Below are positions 6,901 to 63,856 of a stretch of DNA of 64,000 bases, one piece after another; the first letter of the stretch is position 1, and every line of letters starts with the position of its first letter. The DNA comes from Branchiostoma floridae (lineage: Eukaryota > Chordata > Leptocardii > Amphioxiformes > Branchiostomatidae): the NCBI RefSeq assembly GCF_000003815.2, contig NC_049982.1, positions 11,100,175 to 11,164,174 on the forward strand, given 5' to 3'. The notes below the pieces were generated by a model. The model was not told the DNA's origin, made no database searches, and worked only from the letters and a program-made list of their open reading frames with translations. Position numbers and translations under genes: made by a program.

Positions 6901-9900
6901 AAAGTCAGTGCAATGTCATTTCTGTACAGTTCTTCCCCAGCTGCAATTTCTGCTGCCTGGATTTTCAGCCGAAAGAATCAATCATTACCAAAGTGCATCG
7001 GACCCAAAGGACCATGCAATATCGTTTTATTCGATATGAAACTATTTGTAAACCGTTTATAAAACCCGTCGGAAATTACAGTTTACCTTTGCTTCAGAAC
7101 AGTTTATCAAAGGTCATTCTCGATCTCAAGTGTAACATTTACATGAGGATACTTTCTTATCAACACTTTCGTCATGCATCACACTGAGAAGATGATCTTC
7201 TACAGATAGCTGAGGGTGAAGCAGCTATAAGAATCGCAGGGACATTTTCTTAGTTTTTTACTATTCCATTACATAGCAGTTTTTCCTTCTTTTTAATTAG
7301 GTGACATGGCGAAATAGAAAGCAGATTGTAAAACATTATATGCATATTTCAGAATATCGTTAGATTTAGCAACTATGACAATGTATATATTGTATATAAC
7401 GTTACATAAATGATTGTATTTTAGTAATACTGAAGCCCAATGTTAGCCTTCAATTTTTATTGACTAGAATTTTCTAGCTTAAAGTATCATTTTGTACTTC
7501 TATTTTTTTCTAAGTTGATCACATAGAAGTCGCTACATTTGTTTGTTTGTTTTATGTATGACTTCTACTTCTACAATGTACTTGCTATGTGATCACATAT
7601 CACTACTTCCACCTATCACATATTACTACTTACATATCTTCCAAACTGTTCTGACCATTTGCCATATTTGTAAAATTCAAGACACCCTGTCTTACTAATG
7701 TCCGCTGAGGGGAGTGCCGGTCATCAGGATCAGCCAGTTTCATTACTGCACACCGTGCCTTCCTGACGGAGCACCCCCGTGGTGCTGCAGTTCAGCACGG
7801 GGGCGGGATATTCGGGTTGTCTTATTACTTTATGGCCTAACGATTGTTGCAATACGAAATGGACACAACTATATTTACCGCTAACACTTGACTAGTCGTT
7901 ATAAATCTAGAACGAATCAATAGACTTACGTAACCTGGCCTGATTCCTTTTCCCTCTTGGAATTTTTCCAAGAAATAACCAAGAATTCTAAAGAAGAGCA
8001 TTGGGATCATCTTGGCTTTCATCACAATGATTGATTTGACAGCTCAGTCTCGAATTGATAGAAGATCCCTTACTTCATTTTCTACCTGTCTCAAGGGTCT
8101 GTTATTCAGTCACATGCTTCTTCTAGAGTTGCAATCTGTTAGGGTGCGGTCACATCGTCGTTCGACGTCGTATCTTTTTGATGTCGTACGATTTTAGAGC
8201 AGGATATGACGGAACCAACCACCGACAAGGATTTAAGGTAGCATTATTGGTAACGAGACAGCTGAATTTTGTATAACACGCAACGACAATCTCATGACTC
8301 GGTTTGCGATCGTACAAGGCTCGCACGACGAATGTGACCAGGCGCTTGTTTGTTTGTTTATTTGCACAAGAAAATACACAATAGTAATACAATAGATAAT
8401 GGGATTATAACAGGGGTTATGTAGGCCCTCCTCCTTTGTGCTAAACAAAATTGATCATACTTGAACCAGTTGAACTGTAGGTTTGATTATAATTCATGAA
8501 TTATAAAGTACATGTACAATGTACATAAGAATAATCAAGTAATGAATTAGTAGCATTAGATAAAAACTGAACATGTGAGTCTTCTACAGGGATGATTGGC
8601 TTGGATGATTTATCAGATGGGTTTTCATGGCACTTTTAAACGTTAGAAAAGAGGAGTTTGTTTATTTGAAGGCTGTTTCATATTTGTCACATCTGTATCC
8701 TACAGAACACTGAAGGACTGGGTATTGTGGATTGACAGGACAAAATGTAACATGTAATTATGGTTAACATATGCTCAAATAACAAAGTCCCCCGGTACAG
8801 CTAAAAAGTTTGCCAGACATTGCAACCTAATGCATCACCATGCCTGTCATTGTGTCCAGTCACCCTGGGGAGTCATCCTTCCATTTAATCAACTCTACAT
8901 TGTCCCCATCTATATTGTCACTGCGCCTCATTGTCTAGTCGAGGACATGGTGTTGTCTTCACCGAAATTTATGATAACTGTATCATGGCAAATATAGATG
9001 ATACAGCTGAATGAAATGACAATGTGTCATCTTCGGATTTTATCTCGATAGTCGATCTCAACGTGTCTTTGGAATCAACCAAAAGTCGTATCAAGCTATG
9101 TATTCAAGCATTTGATTGTCCAATAATTGTGAGTGAATTTATATATTATACTCTAGAAAACAATCTTTATCGTCATATATTTATATGATTATCTATTATC
9201 TATTAAGGAAGACATGTACATGCCATAGGGACATAACGCTTTTGTGGAAAGTAAAAAGGAAGAAGAAACACATAGCTTATGCAAACCATATCCAATCTAG
9301 GTGAAACCCATTACAAACACGGTAGGTTTACGACAGGTCAAAGGTCACGGCTGCTTCGACCAAATATGTCTTCCGTATATCATTCTCCCGACGATTGGGT
9401 CTTACCAATACGTTTTTCAACCTCCATGGTCTTACCACTTCATTGAGACGCAAAAGTGCTGATTACCTGTCACAGTGGCTAGTTTGTTCTTGACTGTTGT
9501 TAAGTCTTTTGATACTTTTTCAACTCATACTTGCCAAAGTCATCTCGGATTGCTTGTTGACTGGAGTCGTTGACTGGACTCATGGCCGCGGCGCGATCAT
9601 TTTCAGACGTACTTATATCAGGCACTTGAAATGAGCTTTCGCTAATACCCCTGTCACATTTGGCGAAAATCGATCGGACGACGATTCTGCGCCAGTCGCC
9701 CGAGCCTCGCTTATATTTATAATAGTAAATTTATTGCACAACAATTGTACAAGGTACAAAGTATGGCTTATATGTGACAGGGACGGTTTTCATGTGAAAA
9801 ATACGCGCAACTCTCTGTCAATCTTAAATATGGCCGATCTTCCATGGATACGCTCGAAGATCGTGGATAATGTGACAGGGGTATAAGGTATAACGTAGGC

Positions 9901-12394: not shown

Positions 12395-14264
12395 TCATAG
12401 TTTTCCTTCTACCACTACTCCGAGACTAGCATGGGGCAAGTCAAACTGGCGCAAACAGAGGATTTCCGAACAAAATGTTTCCGCCGCCGTTACCATGGCT
12501 TTATTTGTGACGGACACTGTTAGGTAGACAGGCAGCTGTGTGTCACACCTACACATCTCAACAAAGTGTTTCAATAGGTGAGCTTTCAGGTGTCTTTCCT
12601 CGGATACATGAAGGTCCACAAAATACTGCACTCCTGACGGAACTGGAAAACATTTTCCAAAACTAAAGCTCTCTGCAAACGGCTTTGTGTCGTCTGCGAA
12701 TAGAGAATAACCGTTGTTCAGCATGTACAGAAAGTTTTCTTCGCAGAAGTTTAGTGGGTCCCACCGCCCACTCATGAGTCCGTTGGCGAGTAGGTTTCGT
12801 GAAACTTCGGGGTGGAGAACCGAATGGAGATCGTCTTCGTGAATTCGGCGGAGTTCGGGAAGAGTCGGAAAGTCCGGAAGGTTGTTTGCCGCTCGTACGG
12901 CACATGCGCGTTGGCTGTCTCGGGTGTGTGGCTCGTCCGCGAAGGAAATCGTTTGCTGTAAAGAAAAGCAGGATGAGAAAATGAGCATTCCATTCCAAAA
13001 TGTCAAAATCATCTATGAAGCGAATACCTCGACCACTCCCAGACGTATAAGATTGTATAAGAAACATTGCAGCATATTCGAATTCTTTAAAAACGCTTTT
13101 GGTGACTTTGTCAGTTGACTCAATGAGGTTATACACTCTCCTACTTTGTTATGGAGATTGACACAATACTGTAGAAAGTATATGAAATAATCCCCAAGCA
13201 GATCCTACAGTGATATAAGATAGGATCATAAGCTGGCCGATACAGCCGTTCAAATGGACACTCCTTGGCTAGCTTATGATACTATCTTATGCCACTGTAG
13301 AATCTACTTGGTGATTATAGAGGAAAGTCCGAATGGGGTCTATTTGGAACTCAACGAAAATGGCAGATTTTATTGCTTATGACCAAAACATAACGGGCTC
13401 CGTTTGGGCCCAGTTCTGTCATTTTGAATCGAAAAAAATAAGAGTCCTTAAGGGTTGGTAACGAGTGACGTAAAAACATGTGTAAGAACATTTCGCAATT
13501 CTAACTCACCAGATGACAAACAACATCCATTCCCTTTTTCTTCAAGGACTCGACCTTCCCGGCGTCGACAACCAGCTTCCTCTTGCGTTCCACCGCCGGG
13601 AAGCGTGCCCGCACCGCCCGGTCCACGTGCTCGGTCAGGCGGCGGCTGATGCCCAACCCGCGGCACGACTCCGCCACGCGCAGCGCCTTCTCTATGTACA
13701 CCTCGCCTCCGTCAACGATAAAGGCGGAAGACAGCCCCACCTAGCGGTAGTACAGATTAAGACAACATTAAGTACAGCGTCAACGATGTATACACCTTTA
13801 TACATGTACTAGTCTAGATACCAGACCCCAGCCCGATCTCAAAAATATCTATCGTGTAGAGTTGAGATCGGGCTGGGGTCTGGTATCCATGCTAGTTAAG
13901 AACGTACGGTCTGTGATTTTGTGATATCATGGGTGTATGCGTCTTAGGGACAATTTGTTGGTAGACTCGGTAAAAGAGGTAATACACTAACAAAGAAAGA
14001 AAATGTAAGGCAAACACCCTAAAATTGATAGCAAGTAATTATAAACAACATCAAAAACACAAAAAGCGAAATAAATGTTGAGGCTACCCTTACAATTTGA
14101 CCGTCCATCTCCGCCAGTACGACCAGTCTGTACGGGTCGTCTATGAAGGTGTGATAGTGGGACGGCAGGTAGTCCAACCCGCCGTAAACTCCTTCTGACA
14201 TGCGCACAACTTCGTCGAAATCGTCATGGGTCGCCAGGCGAAACTCGAGACAGTCCACGGGCAT
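12395..14264 (-). CDS. NAT16 / histidine N-acetyltransferase-like GNAT enzyme
   Basis: Complete three-exon model, 320 residues, all junctions phase 0: exon 1 14264-14094, exon 2 13740-13510, exon 3 12955-12395. The start ATG has a good context (cacc before ATG). Exon 1 carries the family signature VYGGLDYLPSHYHTF...DPYRLVVLAEMDG. Exon 2 carries GNAT motif A, LRVAESCRGLGISRRL, where the acetyl-CoA loop is R84-G-L-G-I-S89; the usual last Gly/Ala is Ser. Exon 3 matches the long C-terminal half specific to NAT16 (WDPL..CEENF, then a DLHVSEE..LKAHLLKHF region). The teleost member (HISAT) acetylates L-histidine; substrate use here is inferred only. Human NAT16 is 369 residues, the difference lying mainly in its extended N-terminus. 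Introns hold two palindromic repeats (13201-13304, 13809-13895). Confidence 0.88.
13201..13304. repeat. Imperfect 38 bp palindrome
   Basis: Left arm 13201-13238 (GATCCTACAGTGATATAAGA...) and right arm 13267-13304 are imperfect reverse complements separated by 28 bases. It sits in intron 2 of the NAT16-like gene and looks like a small foldback element. Confidence 0.7.
13809..13895. repeat. Foldback repeat family B (ACCAGACCCCAGCCCGATCTC), full copy
   Basis: Arms of about 34 bases containing CCAGACCCCAGCCCGATCTC and its reverse complement are separated by a short AT-rich loop. Related sequences occur at 39459-39493 (one arm) and 43148-43215 (both arms), so this is a dispersed family. Located in intron 1 of the NAT16-like gene. 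Confidence 0.8.
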
Positions 14265-24671: not shown

Positions 24672-27600
24672 CTAACTTGCATCCATGCCTATTGCAGCTG
24701 CCAAACGTGGATACTTGTCCTCCGAGCCAGACAAAACTTCTTCTAGGTGAGGAATCTGCATTAAGTGGGAAACAAACAGTATACATTGTACAGGCATACC
24801 GTATATGTTAGTCTCATATTATATTATGTATCATCAAGTACAGATCATGCATCATAAAATATCTTTTCTTGGGTTCAAAGACAAACTCAATACTCCCAGA
24901 AACACTTCAAATAAAAAAAAAACTAATATAATTTCTCTCAACATTAATTGTAATTGTTGGATGCATTTTATGGTGTTCATTGTATAGCAAATTTAATAAT
25001 TAGAAAAGTGCACCACAAAAAGTTGATTCAGATGAAGACCCTACCAGCGTGTCATCAGTGTGGTCCTGTAGTGCCAGCACCATACTTTCTATCTGGTCTC
25101 TTGTACATCCATTCAGATATCCAGCAACTTGGCTCTCACCCTGTAAGATGTGAGAGTTATACATGCATCAAGACATCAAGTCAAGTCACACATGTAAGAA
25201 TGTTTAGATGTAGTTTATCTTTTTATCTGTTTTCATGGCTTTCCATATATAGCGATTTGTGAGTTTTTTTCAATCTCCTTTTATATGTCAATGAAGGTTA
25301 GATATCAAGGTAATAAGATACGTCAGATAGCAATTACTCAAGCAACTGGGTATGATTTTGGAAGCTCCTTTTATAAGCTTAGCGTACAATTATCATGACT
25401 TAGTCCCCATCAGCTTTGTTAAAACAATCTTACCTTNNNNNNNNNNNNNNNNNNNNNNNNNNNNNNNNNNNNNNNNNNNNNNNNNNNNNNNNNNNNNNNN
25501 NNNNNNNNNNNNNNNNNNNNNNNNNNNNNNNNNNNNNNNNNNNNNNNNNNNNNNNNNNNNNNNNNNNNNNNNNNNNNNNNNNNNNTCTGTCCAAGGGCTG
25601 CCCTCTGCACAAGTTCTGCTGCCTGTTCCGTTCACATCAGCCTCAGTTTTGTCTTCAGTTCTGTGCCTGGAAGAACGTGGCGTTGAAACCGGAGTTGATT
25701 TGTGACTTGATCCCGCTGCAGCAAGAGTCATGCTTGTCCTGCGGTCCTCCTGTATGACTTCAAACAGCTGCATCACACACTCAACACAACTGGAGTCTGA
25801 AAACAGGAAAGATGATGAGAAGAAAAATCATCAGACACATGACAGTAATTGCAAGTTATTAGCTTAAGTAAAAGTCTTCCAGATGTACTGTACATACATA
25901 TACACATGTACTATATCATACATATATATACATAAGGTGCAAATAGATATACTTCAACATAAAGTATATACATGTACTTATAATATAACATTAAGTAATG
26001 GTACTACAGTAATTCTCCTCAAAGAGTAGCAATCTTCTTTAAGGCTTCCAACGTTGTCATAACTATATTAATCACCTGTAGTGTAGTTTTATCATGCCTA
26101 TACTTCTGATTTCCAATGCTATGCTTGCTGAGCACTATTATGAGTATTTTGGAAATTTTTTTATGAAACCATAAAATGTCAGAATCCATCAAAGTATTCC
26201 AAAGTACATTGGCTAACGTTAGAGCAGCTATTGCTATTTCTGTGACTTGTTGAACTTTGAATTGTACTTTGAGTCTGGTTAAAGTTCAACTACATTGTAG
26301 GGTATAAAATCAGCTGATGCTAACAAGGTGAACATACAGTTCCTCTAACTTCCTTATCTGCCAGTTTTCAAATCAAAGTGAGGGTTGTAGGAGTCAAGAG
26401 AGACAGGCAAGTGCAAGGTACTTCCTTCTATCTATTCTGAGTAAGAAAATGTTATGTTATGTAGGAATTGGTCTTCTGCAGATTTTTGACCGGGAAAGCA
26501 AGCTATTCTATACAAATTGATTACAAAAAGGGGAAAAATACATCTGACATGTACAGAAAAATACATGTATCAAGGCACATGTGTACACCAGCACTCTAGA
26601 GTTTAAGTAAACATGACACAGGACATTTTGGTAAATTTTTTAAATAACATGAGTATTTTGACAAATTGTAAACCTTTAATTTGTGATTAAATGTTAAAGT
26701 AAACATATAGTGGCTCAAACAAGCCCTTATATCAACAATCATAGACACCAACAAGGGCCAGCATGTTCCCAAACATTGAAGACAACATTGAATTTTACCC
26801 AAACTGGTGATCTTTTGCAGGTGCAAAAATGCTGTCCGAAAGTTATAGATACAAATTCCTCAGAAAATTAACAGGTCCACCGGAGGAAACTAAAAGTTCA
26901 GACAACACACATGGAGGTAAGGGCACGGATGAAAAAATCAAGATGAAGCAAGTAAAGGACATTGTAGAGGATGCACAAACTAACAAAAGAGCAAGGCCTC
27001 CAACTAGTCTGGCAAAAATGTACAGGTCAGAAGGTCTGATGGAGGAGTGCCTCAGAAGAGTGGTTTCACTCGAGGCTGACGTAACCAACTTACGGCAAGA
27101 GAATGCATCACTAAAGGCAGATTTGCTGTCTCAGCAACAAGAAAAGGAAGAGCTGAGAGAAAAGGTAACTGACATGCAGAAGGAGATGAAAGTCTTGAAG
27201 CAGACAGTTGAGACTACTCAAAGAGAGCAGCAGTTTGACAGTGAAAATGTCCAACAAAGGCTTTATTGCTTGGAATCACATGCTCAAGGCCTGATTGCTC
27301 TGGAGGCAGGCAGTGCAAACCCTAGAATCGTCTGCCTGGACACTCGTACAGGAACTCTCAATCGCAGAGCTTCTACAAGCGCTATTGTAACCACGGGTAC
27401 CTCTTCTGAAACAGGGCCTGACAACCCTACAGATAAAGCAATGACATATGAACACAGGAAGAAACTAGCTTCACAACAGCTAAAGAAGGACTTGCAACTT
27501 GGCATAGTGTTACCTGCCCTTGAAGAGGCCAATATCATCACAACTGAGATGAAAGAAAGGATTGACAGCCATACTAGCAAGATGGAAAAGGTTGAGGAGT

Positions 27601-30600
27601 TTTTGAACATTTTGAAGACAAGGGGAGATAAGGCATTTGAAATATGTCTAAATGCACTGAAAGAAGACCCAGGATCTGCTCATCTGGTGAAGGAGTTAGA
27701 AGTTTCAAATGTGTAAGGAAAAGCACATTGCCCCCTCAAATTAAACACAAGTACATACATGTAATTTCATGTAAGTATGTATGTTCATCACCAGGAAAAT
27801 AGCTGCAACAAAACTTATGGAACTTTAGGAAAGTACAAACTCACTTTTCTCCAGGAGAACTAGTCCCTCCTCCCCAGCTGAAGAGAAGAGAACATTGAGA
27901 ACAGACATGGCTGAGGCCAGACTCCTCTCCCTCCCTCCCACTGCGATGACATCTTCACTACACACCCGGGCCACGTGGGCGGTCAGCTGGGGGAACAGCA
28001 CACCTGTACACTCCACTGGACAGAAACAAGCAATCCAAATAGGATTCTTTTAGTGTGATACATGATATAATATCATTATATCTATGGGATATTGGAGTTT
28101 TCATTTGCACCATGTAAGCTCGACCTCCACGAAAAGCGGCCTTGAAGGCCGATGGAGTATCTATCGAGTTGAAAGGCACAAACAAACAAAACAAACTGGA
28201 GTGCTGCTTCTCTCTGCTATATGTCGCCGATGTACGTGATGCTTTTGCGACAAGAACAATCCCAAATGTGGCTAAGTCTGTCAATATAGCTACTATTATT
28301 GCAGCTACATATAGCGGTTAGAAGCAGCACTTCAGTTGGAAGTTTTGAGGAAGATGTCTGATAGGTAATGAAACTTATGAAGGAGAGACCTAACTGTTTG
28401 TGTAAAAGAAAAGTCTAATATCCTTTCTGTGTTCTTCCAACCTGATAAAATCATTTTTGGTACACATTTTATGGAATTTCTCTTTTAAGATATCCAGTTG
28501 TTTTATATCCAATGTAAAAGCTGATGATTTCAAAGCAGTGATTGATGTAAAGAAACCTAGCTGCAGTTTCATTATATTTTGCTAGATGTCCTCATTTACC
28601 AGCTGGTTTTACTTCAACTTTACCCACCTAAAGCCTGCACTCCGTTTTCTGTAGTTGACAGCAGTTGTAGACAGTGTAGGTATGAATCTACAGTCAGCTC
28701 CTTCTCTTCACTGCAACAGAGAAATTGTGAACAAGACACTTCAACATATTAAGGGACTGTACGATATTTATCAGGGGGGGAGGGCTGGTGCGTTAGGGGG
28801 GGAGGGCCATGTTAATTTTTTTTAGGTGGGGGGAGGGCCATGTTAATTTTTTTTGAGATAGAGGGAGGGCCATGTTAATTTTTTGGAAAGAATTGTTTAT
28901 ACTATTTTTTGTTTTGATATCTTGACATGGCCCTAAAACTGATAGAATAAGCCTTCTGAATAGCCTAAAATGCAAGAGCTTCCGGGGGCCCCCCTAGGTC
29001 CCCCAAAGTGGCGCTGCCCTGGACCAGTGTTCCCGTCATTTTCTGGAAAGACGCACTCGGCTCGGCTGAGCATCCCCAAATATTTAATCATTTAAGTTAC
29101 AAAAGCGGTGCGCGGTAAATATGTGAAGAATCCAAAACTATACACTTTATTTTTTATTTACGACATTTCTTTTGTTTCAAAAGGACAAAATTTGCGGCAG
29201 AAAAGGGGCCGCAATATTGTTGTCAAGCGTCGATCGAGTCGGCTGTGCACTGGCATTGGCGTCTGTAGCACATAGCGCGGCACGCCCCCCTCCCCAGACG
29301 GACTGTCGATCGCAGCGCCCAGCACGTTGGGACGTCTTTTCTGGCTACTCCTTCAAGGCTACACCGGCACTGATCACTGCCAAAGACGCAGCAGATCGCC
29401 CTCCTTCGTATGATGTATAACGTTCTCTACTCTATGTAAAAAGAAATCCAGCGGTGAGCCAACGATTTCACGCCAAAAACAGGGTTACCTGAGGTCACAC
29501 GAAACAAACGCACACTCCTGGAAAATGACGGCACGGCCTTGTAAAACCCGACCAATTCGATAAATTTGAGTAAAATCATCGGGCAAAATAGGAAAAAAAA
29601 ACACAAGGTGTGATGGCGCCATTATTCTATCCTCTGGAAAAACTACTAGGCATTTGATGCGGGAGGGCGCAACATCGATCGCACGAGGTAGGCATTCTTT
29701 ATTCAATGCCGGAAAAAAATTGGCAGGACTTTTCCATGGGCTGACGAACTCACTGGCTAGAGCCCTGTTTGGAAGCATCACAAACCCAAAATTTTCATAT
29801 AGACATGACTGGACAAATAATACCGGGTCAGATCACGGGCGGCTGATTCCCCGTGCTTATAGTTATAACGTATTTTTTGGGAGAGGGCGGACGTCGATTA
29901 CTGAAAAACGGGAGTAAAAAAGGCAACCGGCATCCAATCTCAAGGGCATAATTTTCCTCTCAAATTGCAGGAAATTCTGTTTTAGAGGGTTTGAAAATCC
30001 AAATTTTCCCGGGGGAGCATTCCCCCGGACCCCTGCCCCGACGCTGTGAAAAAATCCTGGCGAGAACACTGGCGCCCTTGTGCCCTGACGTCTATATTAA
30101 GATTATTTTATCGGTTGTTTTTCTACCCGTTTAATTATGCCTGTCGGGGGGGAGGGCCATGTTGATTTTTTTTAGGTGGAGGGGGAGGGTCACGTTAAAT
30201 TTTTTTGAGATGGGGGGGAGGGCCATCAAAAAATTTTTTGATCCGACTTCCAATGCACCAGCCCTCCCCCCCCAATAAATATCGTACGGTCCCTAAACAG
30301 TGCTGTGAGCTCTATATTTTTCTGGTAGATTGTACCACACATTTCCAGGTTAAGCACCTTGATCTATATAACAAGGTGCAATCAAAACTGCCTGAGAAGA
30401 CAACTCAGAGGGCCGATAAAATCTTGGCTCTGTGGACACTATAGATAGAATTTGTATGCTTGTGTCAATGGGAAGAAAAATCTAAGGAAGCCCCCAAAAT
30501 TGGTCACATTGACCAGGTGGTCTTTAAGTACAGGTCTGACTGTAGCAGCAATTGTAGATACACATAAAACAGGCCTATCAAAGATCTATTCTAGGATTAG

Positions 30601-58164: not shown

Positions 58165-59925
58165 TTAGTCTCGCAACAGCTTGATCCGTAAAAACACCAT
58201 CAACCGTTCCCTTGAAATATGTACTCCTGTTTGTAGTTCCTGTTTGACTCGTTGCCATGCCAGTTCCTGCTTGTCGCCTGCACGAGAACCATCGTACAGG
58301 GTTGTGCCGACCCTGTATGTGCGAACCTGTCCTGCAATCGTGTGAACGGCGTCTCGTGCTTGTTGCGCCGCCACGCGGAAGGACGCGGCTCTACACTTCA
58401 CGTCGAACGTGACATACTCCAGTCTCGACATGTTGACAAAAGCCTTTGCCAGTGAGGAGAGACTGAGAGCCAGTGCGTTGTCCGACAAGTAGAGTTTCTG
58501 TAGCTCCTGCAAGTGAATTAATCTCTTTGCCATGGCTTCGCCTCCCACCTCGGTGATCGCATTGTTTCTAATGTCTAGAGCTTCCAGTCTTTTCAGGTGG
58601 GGAAATTTCTCTGCAATCGCTCTGATGCCATCGTCTCCAATCTTATTGTTTTGAAGAGAAATGTGTGTCAGAGTCGTCAGGAGTTGAAGGCGTTCAGCCA
58701 TTGATGTTGCTGCATTTGCTGAAATTTTGCAGTTCGGCATGAAGAGCTTTCCCGTACCTTCCAGGTATGGGAAAAGGTTAACCAGAGCCGCAACATCATT
58801 ATCTGACAGAGTATGAGATATAGATAACACTGCGGGAACACATATCGGCACACTGTCTGTGCTTGTTGTCACATTCTGCAGTGCCTCCAAGGCGTTACGC
58901 ACGGAGAAAAAGAAGTCACTGTACGCTAAGAAGCCATGTGATGTCATGTACTCGCTTGAAGTTCCGGATTTGACGCAGAAGGCGACAGTCTGAGCTAAGG
59001 TGCATGGGAGACTCCCGCTCAGATTCCAGTACCGACACACCCAGGGCCAGAAGAACCTGTCTTGTAACAGGGACATCACGACATCGTTGGCAGCATAACC
59101 TTCCTCCAGTGCCGTAGCGGGATCGCTGTTTTCTGCAAAGTACTCTCTGATGTACAAAGCCCACTCGCTTTGCCAATCTGCAAGAAAGGGAGGGGAATAC
59201 TTCTCTTGCAACTGAATCTGGGTAGGGGAATGTGCAACCTTAAATCAATCTTCATCAAGCCCAACTCAGTGCCCATACATTTTCATTCCATGCCTGATAG
59301 TTTCTTCTTTGAGTAGAGGTTGTGTTAGTGGTATTTGCAATTAAGAGTTCCAGAAAAACAGTAGATATCCTAAAACGCCAGCTATGATTCACTTGCCATT
59401 CAAAGAGTCAACATGGCGGTGAGTACAGCTGTGACGTCATGTGAGAACGCCCTATTACTGCTGTGCAAAATCTCAAAGAAACGTTAACATTTGATCCGTA
59501 CAAAATTGGTCAACATTCTCTTTGTGCTTACCTGTTCCCTCTGTAGTCGGTGTTGTGAACGGCAGTTGTGGTTTGGAAGTGGTTGTTGAAAGTGTTTTCT
59601 GGTTCATCTGGTGTCAAACACAATAGAATTATTCATTAGAACGAATCGTGTTTGTGTGTGTAAGTGTGTTTGTGTTACGAGTATGCATGTGTGTGTGTAT
59701 GCGTGCATGTGTGTTCATCTGTGTGCATGTGCGCAGGCGCGCAAGGTAGTATGATCATGTGTGTGTGAGTGTGTGCGTGCGTGCGCGTATGTGCTCACGC
59801 GCGCAAGGGTGTGTATGTGTGTGTATGTGTGTGTGTGTATGTGCGTGCGCTTATGTTAGTGTGTTATCGCGTGATTTTGTTAATCTGTGTGTATGTGCTC
59901 AAGCGCGCAAGTGTGTGTGATCGTT

Positions 59926-59956
<31 letters not shown>

Positions 59957-62900
59957 GTGTGTGCATGAGTTAATGTGTAAGGAGAGGGCGGTATATAGAG
60001 AGGCACAGAGAAAGAAAGAGAGAGAGAGAGGGAGTGATATGAATGGGAAACCTTACCAAGTCATCAGAGCGGTTGAAGACTACGCTGACTACAGTTATCG
60101 CAATAGCGGCAATAATGACACCAACGCCAACAGCCACCATGCGCCCTAGACGGGACCTAGAGAATACGCGGCAGTTCTGACTGCACCTCGCGTCGTCATT
60201 ATCATCTCCTGTGAAGCAACACAAACACACAGGGGTTATTGTAGAACCCCTACGTTTCAATCAATCATTAGTGCTACCGTCCTCAAGGCTGATTCTACTT
60301 TCCACTGCTTAATGGTGCTGCTGTGAAAAGTAAGGAATCCAATCCATGAAACATTATTTCTGTATCCTCATCATCACAGGTCATGATGTTTCGGACCACA
60401 TTCTTCTTATTGTCGAGCCATGTTGAGTAGAACCCATCCGTAATTTTTGCCCCAATGACACGAAGGCATTTTAGTAGAAGGAATTTCTTAAGGTGTCAGG
60501 TAAATATTTTTGCCAGCCCAGCAATGAACTGCATTACACAGTTGTGCATTGTAGCATTTCTTGGTAGTCCTCCGGTATCCAAGATGACTCATTGTGTACT
60601 TATCAGGGGGCGTTGGCAGTCCAAGGTCAAAGTATAAGGCCCCTTGCATATACAGTAGACAAAGAATTATGCGTGCGCACTTGGAATTGTGTTCTAGCTT
60701 ATAACTTACCCCTGTTCTGTTCCCTGACTCGGTGCCTCCTGCAAGCTTCATCTTGAGCGGCAACGAACTCGGGATCCAAATCGGCGTACACGTTACTTGA
60801 TGAGGCGGACTTGCCCAGTCGACTGTCGTCCATCTGGTAAAAAGGCTGTTCTTCTTTTTCACCATCGGCTGCTGAGACAACATCCATCTCGTAAAAGGGC
60901 TGCCCTTTTTGTAGCTTGTCTTTGGCAGCGGTGGCATCCATCTTGTAAAACGGTTGTTCTTGTTCATCATCAGCGGGGGAGATGTCCATCTCATAGAACG
61001 GCTGAGCTGAGGCATTTTGGATCGCGTCTTGTGCTGCCAGGAAGTCAGGGTCTAAATCGGCATAAACGTGGGTTGATAGATTCGACTGTTCCTCGCCATT
61101 CTCGTAATTATGCGCGTGTTTTCTATCATTCTCGTAATGCCCGTGATTTTTATCATACTGGTAATATTTGTGTTCCCTATCATTTCTGTTATGTGCGTGT
61201 TCTGTATCGTTCTCATAATCTGCGTGATTTTTATCGTACTGGTAATATTTGTGTTCTCCATCGTTCTCGTAGTGTGCGTGTTCTCTATCGTTCTCGTAGT
61301 GTGCGTGTTCTCTATCGTTCTCGCAGTGTGCGTGATTTCTATCATTCTCGTAATGTGCGTGATTTTTATCGTATTGGTAATATTTGTGTTCTCCATCATG
61401 CCCGTAGTGTGCGTCTTCTCTACCTTTCCAAAGTTTCCTGTTATGTGTGTGTTCTCTATCGTTCTCATAATGTGCGTTTTCTCTATCGTTCTCGTAATGT
61501 GCGTGATTTTTATCGTATTGGTAATATTTGTGTTCTCTATCGTCCTCGTAGTGTGTGTGTTCTCTATCGTTCTCGTAGTGTGCGTGTTCTCTACCGTCCC
61601 TGTTATGTGCGTGTTCTCTATCATTCTCGTAGTGCGCGTGCTCCCTATTGTTCTCGTAATTCGTGCTGCCATGGTTTTGGAAATCAGCTTCTCCGTTTCC
61701 AGTAAAGTCAAGGACAGCGCCCTTGCCATATTCTATAACAGGCTTCAAAGCTGCGCCTGGATCTTCCCTTGCACGCAGTGCTTGTCTCTGCCAGTCGAGG
61801 ATCCGTTTTGTGGACCAGAACCTCTGTCCCTCCCGTCTGACGTACAGCGGGTCCGGCGGGCGGCAAGATGCAATGGCCGGATGAGGTTTTAGTTCCTTCG
61901 GTCGAACCGCAGCGGGCCGAGACACTGAAATATCAAGGATAAGTTATGACGCGACAAAAGATTAAGAAACAAAGTTACTGGAATATGTCATTTGATTTGT
62001 ATTTACGGAATGATGCACAGAAATACAGCTGGGTATGAAAAGGCTGTGTCGGATTAAAGGGACGCGCAACGACAACTTTCGTTGCCAACGCAAATCATTT
62101 CGTCTCCTGCGCGCAGATATTTGTTTGTCGTTGTGTGCGTTTGTAAACCATTTATGTCCTGTGCCCTGCAGTAGTGTCCTTCACATAAACATGAGTATAC
62201 ATAAGACGCGCAGTGTCGGTCACGTGTTTGTTACTATGGTAATGCCTGGACATGTAAATTGTGTCCCGCTTGGGGGGACAGATTTATTTCCCCAAGGACA
62301 TTACATAAAAAGATTCTGATGTCCTTGATACACCTAATCACTACCATGAGTGACCAGACTACTTAGAGGCAGCGCGCGGAGACAATCCCCGCTCACGCGC
62401 GCGCGCACGAGATTTAATTCTGATGACGCTCACTTAACATGATCTTACATCAACTCCGTGGGGCAAGCGGACAGACGTGGGAGTCAGCTAGATATAAATT
62501 TTACAAGTAGTGGGGGCGGGTGCAGAGTTTGTGTGCCCAAGTGGCCGGGGATCGGTGGCAAGTCCTCCGCACCCCGCCTCTATTTTGAATTTTGGAGTCT
62601 GGTCACCCAAGGTGCCTCTTCACGTAAAGAAACGCACTTATCAAAAAGCGTAGGGGTCTTCTCTGGCGTACGTGACTGAAAACGTGATTGCACACAAAAA
62701 ATGTCGAAAAAGCGTATCCTTTTTTGGAGACTTGATATGAGTCACGTTACGGGCACCATGATTGCTTAAGCTTTTCTTTCATATTTCATAATTTCCCATG
62801 TTAAACAGTTATTATATTTTAACAATAATGCACCACAACATTATAGTACCAGGTAGTGGCTTGTAAGAAATATACAGCCACGGTTGGAATTTATCGCCCG

Positions 62901-63856
62901 CGCCTGAGACGACATCCATCATTCAAAAGCAGCTTGAAACGTAGCAATGCTGTTCAAAGAATGATTGTTTGGTCGCTGTGTGTCCTTGATAAAACTAGCT
63001 AGCCAGGCCCTCTGGCAAATCAAGTCAGAACGCTCCTGTCACCGCAGCACTGATCGATAAATTGACTAACATTTTACGCAGACTTTATTGACTCTCTAAA
63101 GGAACAAATCAAACGTGACTGTTTGCTGTTATTTGGAACCAGTCTAGCTGGATGAAATCTTTACATGTATTTGACTTGGCGTAAGAAAGCCGCCCTGTTT
63201 CTAAACGTCCATACGCACGCCCCTTTATTTCTGAAACATGTAACGTTAGATAAGAAATGCCTTCAAAGCCAAAGTGTGCGTTCTAACGTCCGTTACCGGC
63301 AATAGAAAGCATACCCGCCGCAGGAATGTATGTATATATTTATTGCTTTGTCCTTGGTCGGTCGCTCTACCTTAATACACTACTGTTGAATACAAGATGC
63401 TCGGTACTAGATCTCCTCATATCGGATATGTACGACCGACTACATTATACTTCATACGGCGGTTGGATATCTTACCTACTAATTCACAATTACTAACCAT
63501 ATTGTTTCGGTAAAAAAAATCAACATACCCGTTTGCGTTGCCTTTCGATTTTCGTAGAGCTGGTCTAACTCGTCGTCTTGACTTGGTGATGAAGAGGTTT
63601 GCACCGCTGTCTGTGTGGTCTTCGCTCCCTCCTTCCGTGGCAAGGACGGTTCCTTGTGTACTACAGCGTGAGTCGTGATGGTTGTTCTCTCTCTAACGTT
63701 GGACTGGGTATCTTCAGCCGGGCGTCCGCACGACTCTTGCCTCCCGGGCGCTGTTTTCCTCCGCCTGACTGACTGCTTTTTCTTGGACGGACTAAAACCC
63801 TCCAAATCGCGGCTCATTTTTGGCTCCCTAACCACCGCATCTACGTTTTCGGTCAT
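58165..63856 (-). CDS. Predicted membrane protein: Tyr-repeat cytoplasmic region, TM helix, NLR-type LRR ectodomain, 936 aa
   Basis: Five exons, phases agreeing: 63856-63529, 61924-60710, 60208-60057, 59607-59532, 59204-58165. Residues 1-110 are basic and Ser/Thr-rich (SKKKQSVRRRKTAPGRQ). Residues about 199-383 are some 20 copies of a nonapeptide like YENDREHAH. Residues 397-500 hold two VYADLDP.F.AAQD motifs and four QPFY.MD motifs. The TM helix is 538-559 (MVAVGVGVIIAAIAITVVSV), preceded by RSRLGR, so by positive-inside the N-terminus is cytoplasmic (type II). Residues 561-590 are a Thr-rich stalk. Residues 605-673 (YIREYF...LLQDRFFWPWVCRYW...LPCTLAQTVAFCV) resemble the end of a NACHT module in NLRs, followed by LRRs of the ribonuclease-inhibitor type (LTHISLQNNKIGDDGIRAIA) at about 718-878. 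The P-loop half of NACHT is absent. The exon 5 acceptor (GTTGCAAG) is non-ideal, chosen by phase. A signalling or pattern-recognition role is inferred. Confidence 0.78.
59645..60032 (+). repeat. GT-rich microsatellite followed by an AG run
   Basis: Long (TG)n stretches interrupted by GCGTGC and GCGCGCAAG motifs, then (AG)n at about 60008-60032. Alternating purine-pyrimidine sequence of this kind can adopt Z-DNA. It lies between exons 3 and 4 of the NLR-derived gene. The ORFs it makes (such as 59769-59954) are spurious. Confidence 0.9.
61104..61658 (-). repeat. 27 bp coding tandem repeat (nonapeptide YENDREHAH) array
   Basis: About 20 in-frame units inside exon 2 of the NLR-derived gene. Consensus is Tyr-Glu-Asn-Asp-Arg-Glu-His-Ala-His, with variants YQYDKNHAH, YENDREHKY and NRNDREHKY. 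One unit is expanded to 12 residues (NRKLWKGREDAH). A higher-order order EHKY-YQYDKNHAH-YEND recurs at four places, so multi-unit blocks were duplicated. The array is also open in other frames on both strands. Confidence 0.95.
61925..63528. other. First intron of the NLR-derived gene
   Basis: No exon, RNA gene or clear transposon recognised. A CG-alternating run (about 62395-62406) is present. Confidence 0.5.

Follow-up and report, generated by a model that had tools for sequence, protein, structure and literature searches.

A Branchiostoma floridae family of predicted type II membrane proteins with an NLR-related HD1-LRR region and no detectable NTPase

A five-exon gene and its paralogs

The DNA analysed here (henceforth the window) is a stretch of 64,000 nucleotides from the amphioxus Branchiostoma floridae (assembly GCF_000003815.2, contig NC_049982.1, positions 11,100,175 to 11,164,174 of the forward strand); positions given below count from its first letter. 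Between 58165 and 63856 the minus strand holds five exons that together make a single open frame of 927 amino acids plus a stop, with GT/AG introns and compatible phases. The encoded protein carries a long tyrosine-rich N-terminal tail, a single transmembrane (TM) helix and a C-terminal region in which a segment related to the HD1 of NLR proteins precedes leucine-rich repeats (LRRs): a nucleoside triphosphatase (NTPase) is not detectable. It is one of a close family of 15 loci.

Exon 1 (63529..63856), supported by its open frame and GT donor, begins with the start ATG at 63856 and encodes an N-terminal region that by hydropathy is neither hydrophobic nor signal-peptide-like. Its counterparts show 77% identity in L010 and 73–79% in L011 (loci carry the prefix L, contigs the prefix C); in some clade-2 copies the similarity is weak and limited to approximately residues 56–111. 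At positions 1971-2624 of L010 a piece of exon 1 is tandemly repeated several times. Exon 2 (60710..61924) encodes the tyrosine-rich tail, a 27-bp tandem repeat followed by six conserved tyrosines. Exon 3 (60057..60208) supplies the TM helix, flanked towards the tail by a stretch rich in Cys and Arg (CSQNCRVFSRSRLGR), and exon 4 (59532..59607) a Ser/Thr/Pro-rich stalk. Exon 5 (58165..59177) encodes what we term the ectodomain: the HD1 segment (58957-59175), a linker, ribonuclease-inhibitor-type LRRs, a C-terminal cap and the stop.

The initial annotation of this DNA named the last three exons only; exons 1 and 2 were placed in the present analysis. Exons 60208-60057 and 59607-59532 prove correct as it gave them (GT/AG boundaries, phases and open frame). 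The third, 58165-59204, is a real exon with its acceptor drawn 27 bases too far upstream: the correct position is 59177 (ttcttgcag), and each of the 14 paralogs (L009-L022) has an equivalent acceptor. The single helix that had been proposed is borne out by one hydropathy peak (2.81, residues 541–559), there being no 19-residue window above 1.6 outside residues 533–563.

The genome searched comprises 513 Mb in 431 contigs, with the window on contig C4. A tblastn search with exon 5 returned 91 matches, from which the close family was defined: the window gene plus 14 paralogs on contigs C1, C2, C4, C5, C7, C9 and C10, whose exon 5 sequences are 52–81% identical to that of the window. A TM exon lies upstream of exon 5 at 15/15 loci; its core of 23 residues and its phase-0 donor are shared by all. 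Between the two a recognisably similar Ser/Thr/Pro-rich stalk frame is likewise present at every locus; splice sites of the stalk exon were scored for five loci and in the rest the Ser/Thr/Pro-rich frame resembling the stalk was chosen. The tail exon is present in 14 of the 15 fetched loci, and a tail search of the genome places that of L022 just past the fetched piece.

HD1 homology, leucine-rich repeats and the missing NTPase

The LRRs of exon 5 are recognised by Pfam (LRR_6, 1.5e-9; LRR_4, 3.1e-9), and a profile built from the exon 5 alignment A1 (12 of the 15 loci; L012, L018 and L022 were excluded as broken) matches ribonuclease inhibitor in the PDB at 2.2e-30, in agreement with the type first assigned to them.

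Residues 1–73 of exon 5 (W..YIREYF ... FFWPWVCRYW ... LPCTLAQ) correspond to the opening part of HD1 in the true NLRs of amphioxus; the counterpart in L030 reads FIMKYF ... VPMLLLQVCLLW. When a profile of the family and its relatives (18 sequences, 16 retained by hhalign) was aligned with four NACHT frames, the score was 34.1 at columns 262–317 of 791, that is, at HD1, against a mean of 13.4 (standard deviation 2.4, maximum 25.1) for 397 column shuffles scored of 400. With the profile restricted to the 12 TM-family sequences the score was 32.6, at columns 264–312, against a maximum of 21.4 in 300 shuffles.

A tblastn search with the HD1 segment also found 11 frames of a second type, here called C215-type, on C215, C3 and C11 (best E 4.6e-7). 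One of these, L029, compared alone with NLRs scored 18.1, which is not above its shuffles (mean 15.1, maximum 27.5); because it stayed within the shuffle range, ten more members were added to the profile. The resulting profile (11 sequences, 10 retained by hhalign) can be aligned with true NLRs along 153 columns spanning HD1 and the winged helix, with a score of 36.9 (200 shuffles: mean 16.3, maximum 31.6). Judged by these profile comparisons, the exon 5 segment is homologous to NLR HD1, above chance, and the NLR relation on which the initial annotation depended is thereby found. That annotation had described the segment as reading like the last part of NACHT. This holds for HD1, but neither a winged helix between HD1 and the LRRs nor HD2 was detected in the TM family, in which the LRRs begin ∼40 residues after HD1.

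As the initial annotation had stated for the five exons, no Walker A or Walker B pattern occurs in the 927-residue protein. Pfam finds no NACHT, and no NLR domain other than LRRs, in exons 1, 2, 3 and 5. Frames of at least 80 amino acids, whether in the window at large or in the DNA fetched for the 14 paralogs, are likewise without a Walker A. A search of the genome for NACHT, in which 103 of 152 candidates were scored, listed 104 matches; no member of the list falls inside 360 kb on either side of a family locus, the closest to the window gene being 4.09 Mb distant. As far as DNA can tell, a NACHT exon to which exon 5 might have been joined did not come to light among these matches.

Relatives of the module and selection on the family

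The HD1-LRR module has further relatives. With the HD1 of L026 as query 41 matches were obtained, among them those to the TM family, to the C215 cluster and to other frames on C12, C3 and C4. CARD exons are found upstream of the module in L025 (E 1.3e-11), L026 (5.1e-9) and L027 (9e-11), at oriented positions 7848, 7047 and 4565, respectively, before HD1-LRR exons that are themselves without NACHT. L027 has in addition an exon that resembles a TRADD-N-type segment by eye, for which Pfam gave nothing convincing. In L029 a Death-domain exon (2.9e-9) begins ∼1.5 kb ahead of the module, with no NACHT-like frame seen by eye between the two; the contig of L029 does hold a NACHT match, at a distance of 64 kb. 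No upstream signalling domain was found within the DNA read at L023 and L028. From order, strand and distance, we infer that the upstream CARD and Death-domain exons are part of the same genes as the module.

The C215 cluster consists of L029 and L035-L044 (L041 being on C3 and L042 on C11) and shows HD1 together with a winged-helix-like segment; L029 also carries many LRRs. By sequence its members look like NTPase-less NLRs. Because the CARD-linked and Death-linked relatives of the module are also without a detected NTPase, the TM family appears to be one branch of a wider NTPase-less class. That the transfer of an NLR C-terminus onto a transmembrane protein, as seen by the initial annotation, was the cause of NTPase loss is not supported: relatives at three CARD-linked loci and at the one Death-linked locus whose upstream DNA was read show no NTPase either.

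Selection was assessed as the ratio of nonsynonymous to synonymous divergence (dN/dS, omega) for 11 loci in exon 5, 15 in the TM exon and 14 in the tail, omitting pairs in which dS was at most 0.02 or saturated (90 of 91 tail pairs and 103 of 105 TM pairs were kept). Of the parts tested, constraint is strongest on the tail segment, with an omega of 0.26 and 0/90 pairs above one; exon 5 has a median of 0.40 (0/55 pairs above one; median synonymous distance 0.86), and the TM exon 0.56 (4/103 pairs above one). The constraint on exon 5 is not what a pseudogene fragment would display, and neither a pseudogene nor a plain chimera was accepted as an account of the window copy. Distances in the tail and in the ectodomain agree closely (Mantel r 0.917, 0 of 9999 permutations, n = 11 copies), which suggests that a single fusion predates the expansion of the family and has been retained since.

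Not every copy is intact. Exon 5 is broken or truncated at four of the 15 loci – stops in L012 and L018, a truncation in L021 and a split in L022 – and further fragments occur (L024 is one), a pattern as in birth-and-death families.

The genome gave no support to the idea that the tail has been transferred by shuffling to other ectodomains: among 53 tail-matching pieces the strong matches are the family loci plus L034, and in the weak remainder the match is confined to the repeat part of the query (residues 73–272). L034 (C7:25940500-25949400) is an extra, incomplete tail copy that runs into a 100-N gap within its TM exon; past the gap the DNA has, by eye, the look of a MARCH-type RING gene, and the gap may mark a join made in assembly.

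Elsewhere in the window, a frame at 26811-27716 (plus strand) combines a coiled-coil-like stretch with a CARD at its C-terminus (Pfam 4.6e-14), and one at 12395-13012 (minus strand) a Histidine N-acetyltransferase C-terminal domain (Pfam Hisat_C, 1.8e-13).

Topology, signalling and alternative explanations

The features of a type II single-pass protein are present in the sequence: one TM helix, no cleaved signal peptide and a positively charged N-terminal flank. Lysine and arginine are richer on the tail side of the helix in 13 of the 15 copies (the flanks compared were unequal, 15 residues against 5 to 14), and a sequon (NES, NMT or NIT) stands directly on its C-terminal side in nine. Cysteine makes up 1.5% of ectodomain residues (61 of 3999), compared with 1.8–3.9% in five CARD/DD-type or related frames and 2.4–3.3% in four true NLRs (L023, 8/352, was excluded from the comparison). 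Flanking charges, the stalk, the juxtamembrane sequons and the lower cysteine content together make it probable that the tail lies in the cytosol and the LRRs outside, the orientation that the initial annotation had also preferred. Within exon 5, N-x-T occupies position 101 in 10/12 sequences and N-M-S/T position 248 in 12/12. The tail-side flank of the exon 3 helix also holds conserved cysteines (CSQNC, with more in most copies) that are possible acylation sites.

The coding repeat of exon 2 (61110-61660) is built of HAHYENDRE-like units rich in YEND and YxN. The number of units varies strongly among paralogs; exon 2 contains from 3 to 23 YxN in copies without an assembly gap there. The tail of the window protein has 12 YxN against a shuffle mean of 2.3 and a maximum of 8 (2000 shuffles), counts that are not independent because they are made within a tandem repeat. 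The conserved segment that follows holds six tyrosines in each of 14 copies (VYADLD, FYEMD, FYKMD, FYEM, FYxM and VYADLD), the first and last of which belonged to the pattern used for picking the segment. Phosphorylated YxN (pYxN) is a site for the Grb2 SH2 domain. Paired YxxL motifs at a spacing of 6–8, as in the immunoreceptor tyrosine-based activation motif, are not present, the YADL motifs of the window protein being more than 80 residues apart when read directly. Pfam recognises no signalling domain within exons 1 to 3, and no TIR, LRRNT or LRRCT in exons 1, 2, 3 and 5, so that the protein is not of Toll-like receptor type.

On this evidence we consider it reasonably probable that the gene product is a type II cell-surface signalling receptor with an NLR-derived ectodomain. 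The N-terminal tail, with its repeated YxN and six conserved tyrosines, would be cytosolic; the single helix would span the membrane, and the short mucin-like stalk would hold the HD1-LRR ectodomain, which could bind an extracellular ligand, probably a microbial or self marker. Binding would cluster the receptors and a kinase of Src-family type might then phosphorylate the tail, whereupon the signal would be relayed, for example to phagocytosis, by SH2 phosphatases or by SH2 adaptors, those for pYxN being of Grb2 type; the receptor would have a role in immunity. A nucleotide switch would not be involved, since the cytosolic-type CARD and Death-domain relatives of the module also show no NTPase.

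Beside the two qualifications attached to the tail counts, several observations weigh against this interpretation. For HD1, the hhalign probabilities are modest (31–51%), and when the TM-only profile was lengthened to take in the linker its score was just 16.7 (4%), though this match too was placed at HD1; the PDB profile matches fall in the LRR part and none in HD1 (among the best 60 of 186), and an AlphaFold2 model of the window exon 5 alone was unusable (predicted local distance difference test 39, predicted template-modelling score 0.24). For topology, the distribution of lysine and arginine does not favour an internal tail in two of the 15 copies (equal in L016, reversed in L018); sequon enrichment in exon 5 failed as a test, with 31 observed against 25.9 expected in the 12 sequences; and two HD1 cysteines also occur in CARD-type relatives, and are therefore no sign of disulphides. 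For signalling, the strict immunoreceptor tyrosine-based inhibition motif ([SIVL]xYxx[LIV]) is absent: read directly, the YADL motifs of the window protein have H or N at −2.

The protein could instead be a membrane-anchored intracellular sensor, with its helix reversed or in an inner membrane, the HD1-LRR region cytosolic and the His/Tyr-rich tail lumenal or extracellular. Such a reading draws on the cytosolic type of the other module carriers in which an upstream domain was identified (CARD in L025, L026 and L027, Death in L029) and on the chance level of exon 5 sequons. We regard it as unlikely: the tail-side flank is Arg-rich, the Ser/Thr/Pro stalk and juxtamembrane sequons lie on the LRR side, the cysteine content is lower, no signal peptide is present to carry a 530-residue tail across the membrane, and it is the tail segment that is most conserved.

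Purifying selection on the ectodomain, which reveals no ligand arms race at this resolution, would be consistent with an adhesion or developmental receptor, one of an expanded type II LRR family serving cell-cell recognition and not immunity. Its NLR descent and a lineage expansion accompanied by broken copies make this quite improbable, as does the likeness of the tyrosine tail to that of a published amphioxus immune LRR receptor (PMC8211107), as far as the text drawn on here describes it. The initial annotation had offered a receptor or a decoy, and of the two the receptor is favoured. A surface decoy or scavenger, the LRRs binding ligand above a non-signalling tail, would account for the lack of a Pfam signalling domain in exons 1 to 3, but because the tail is the most constrained part tested and keeps six tyrosines in each of 14 copies, to which the excess of YxN may be added, a decoy is not supported and is very doubtful; a signalling receptor appears to fit better. 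That exon 5 is spliced to a NACHT exon that escaped notice, the TM exons being those of a separate gene, is, even with 103 of 152 NACHT candidates scored, extremely unlikely given the order of TM exon and exon 5 at all 15 loci with canonical sites and matching phases, the congruent divergence of tail and ectodomain, and the absence both of listed NACHT matches inside 360 kb and of a Walker A from the frames of at least 80 amino acids in the window. Overall, the initial interpretation is supported in its NLR relation, missing NTPase, single helix and preferred topology, and not supported in the cause of NTPase loss and in the decoy.

A wider proposal may be put tentatively: that amphioxus possesses a whole class of proteins descended from NLRs but without the NTPase, their HD1-LRR sensor module being joined to varied outputs (CARD, Death domain, TM-tyrosine tail). 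In the TM branch, surface receptors would tune the strength of their signal through the count of pYxN docking sites in the coding tandem repeat, which ranges from 3 to 23 per copy, adaptor multivalency replacing the nucleotide-driven oligomer.

Canonical NLRs are cytosolic. They share with the present family ribonuclease-inhibitor-type LRRs (NLRP3, NLRP5 and others are among the best 60 of 186 PDB profile matches) and, in the amphioxus NLR frames L030-L033, the HD1 segment, but have a NACHT NTPase and a winged helix, neither of which was detected in the TM family. A literature search, judged on titles and abstract openings, found no description of such a family. Several comparable proteins are nonetheless known, described here as far as the text drawn on goes. 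Sea cucumber AjNLR-new (PMC13133943) and AjNLRC4 (PMC8699970) are membrane-localised NLR-related receptors linked to phagocytosis of Vibrio, the NACHT part of the former being reported as extracellular (PMC13133943). Both retain NACHT and have Ig domains and two TM helices, whereas the amphioxus family has no NTPase, one helix and a tyrosine tail; AjNLRC4 is moreover reported without LRRs (PMC8699970), which the amphioxus family possesses. Actiniarian TM-NLRs (PMC5094078) are likewise NLR-related proteins with TM segments and a lineage-specific innovation, but have three to five N-terminal helices and NACHT in place of one helix and no NACHT.

In Branchiostoma belcheri, BbLcLRR (PMC8211107) is an LRR receptor whose cytosolic tyrosines are phosphorylated by Lck and with which SH2 phosphatases associate; unlike the present family it has its N-terminus outside and LRRNT/LRRCT and WSC domains, and no NLR part is mentioned in the text consulted. 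FrLRR of the same species (PMC10199209) is an LRR membrane receptor connected to Grb2 and phagocytosis, for which exon shuffling has been proposed; it differs in a predicted glycosylphosphatidylinositol anchor, Slit2-type LRRs and a folate-receptor domain, again with no NLR part mentioned in that portion. Amphioxus NACHT proteins are described, in the part considered, as products of domain shuffling with NACHT retained (PMC2575513). Since membrane NLRs with NACHT are already known from sea cucumber and anemones, the amphioxus family is a variation on a known kind.

NLRs are taken to need the NACHT switch. If the interpretation offered here is true, the sensor end of an NLR has been uncoupled from that switch and reused, both in a membrane receptor and in CARD and Death-domain proteins. 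It would also constitute another route, beside those of the sea-cucumber and anemone TM-NLRs, of placing NLR parts at the membrane, and the family allows a direct test of the role of HD1 where there is no NTPase for it to hold.

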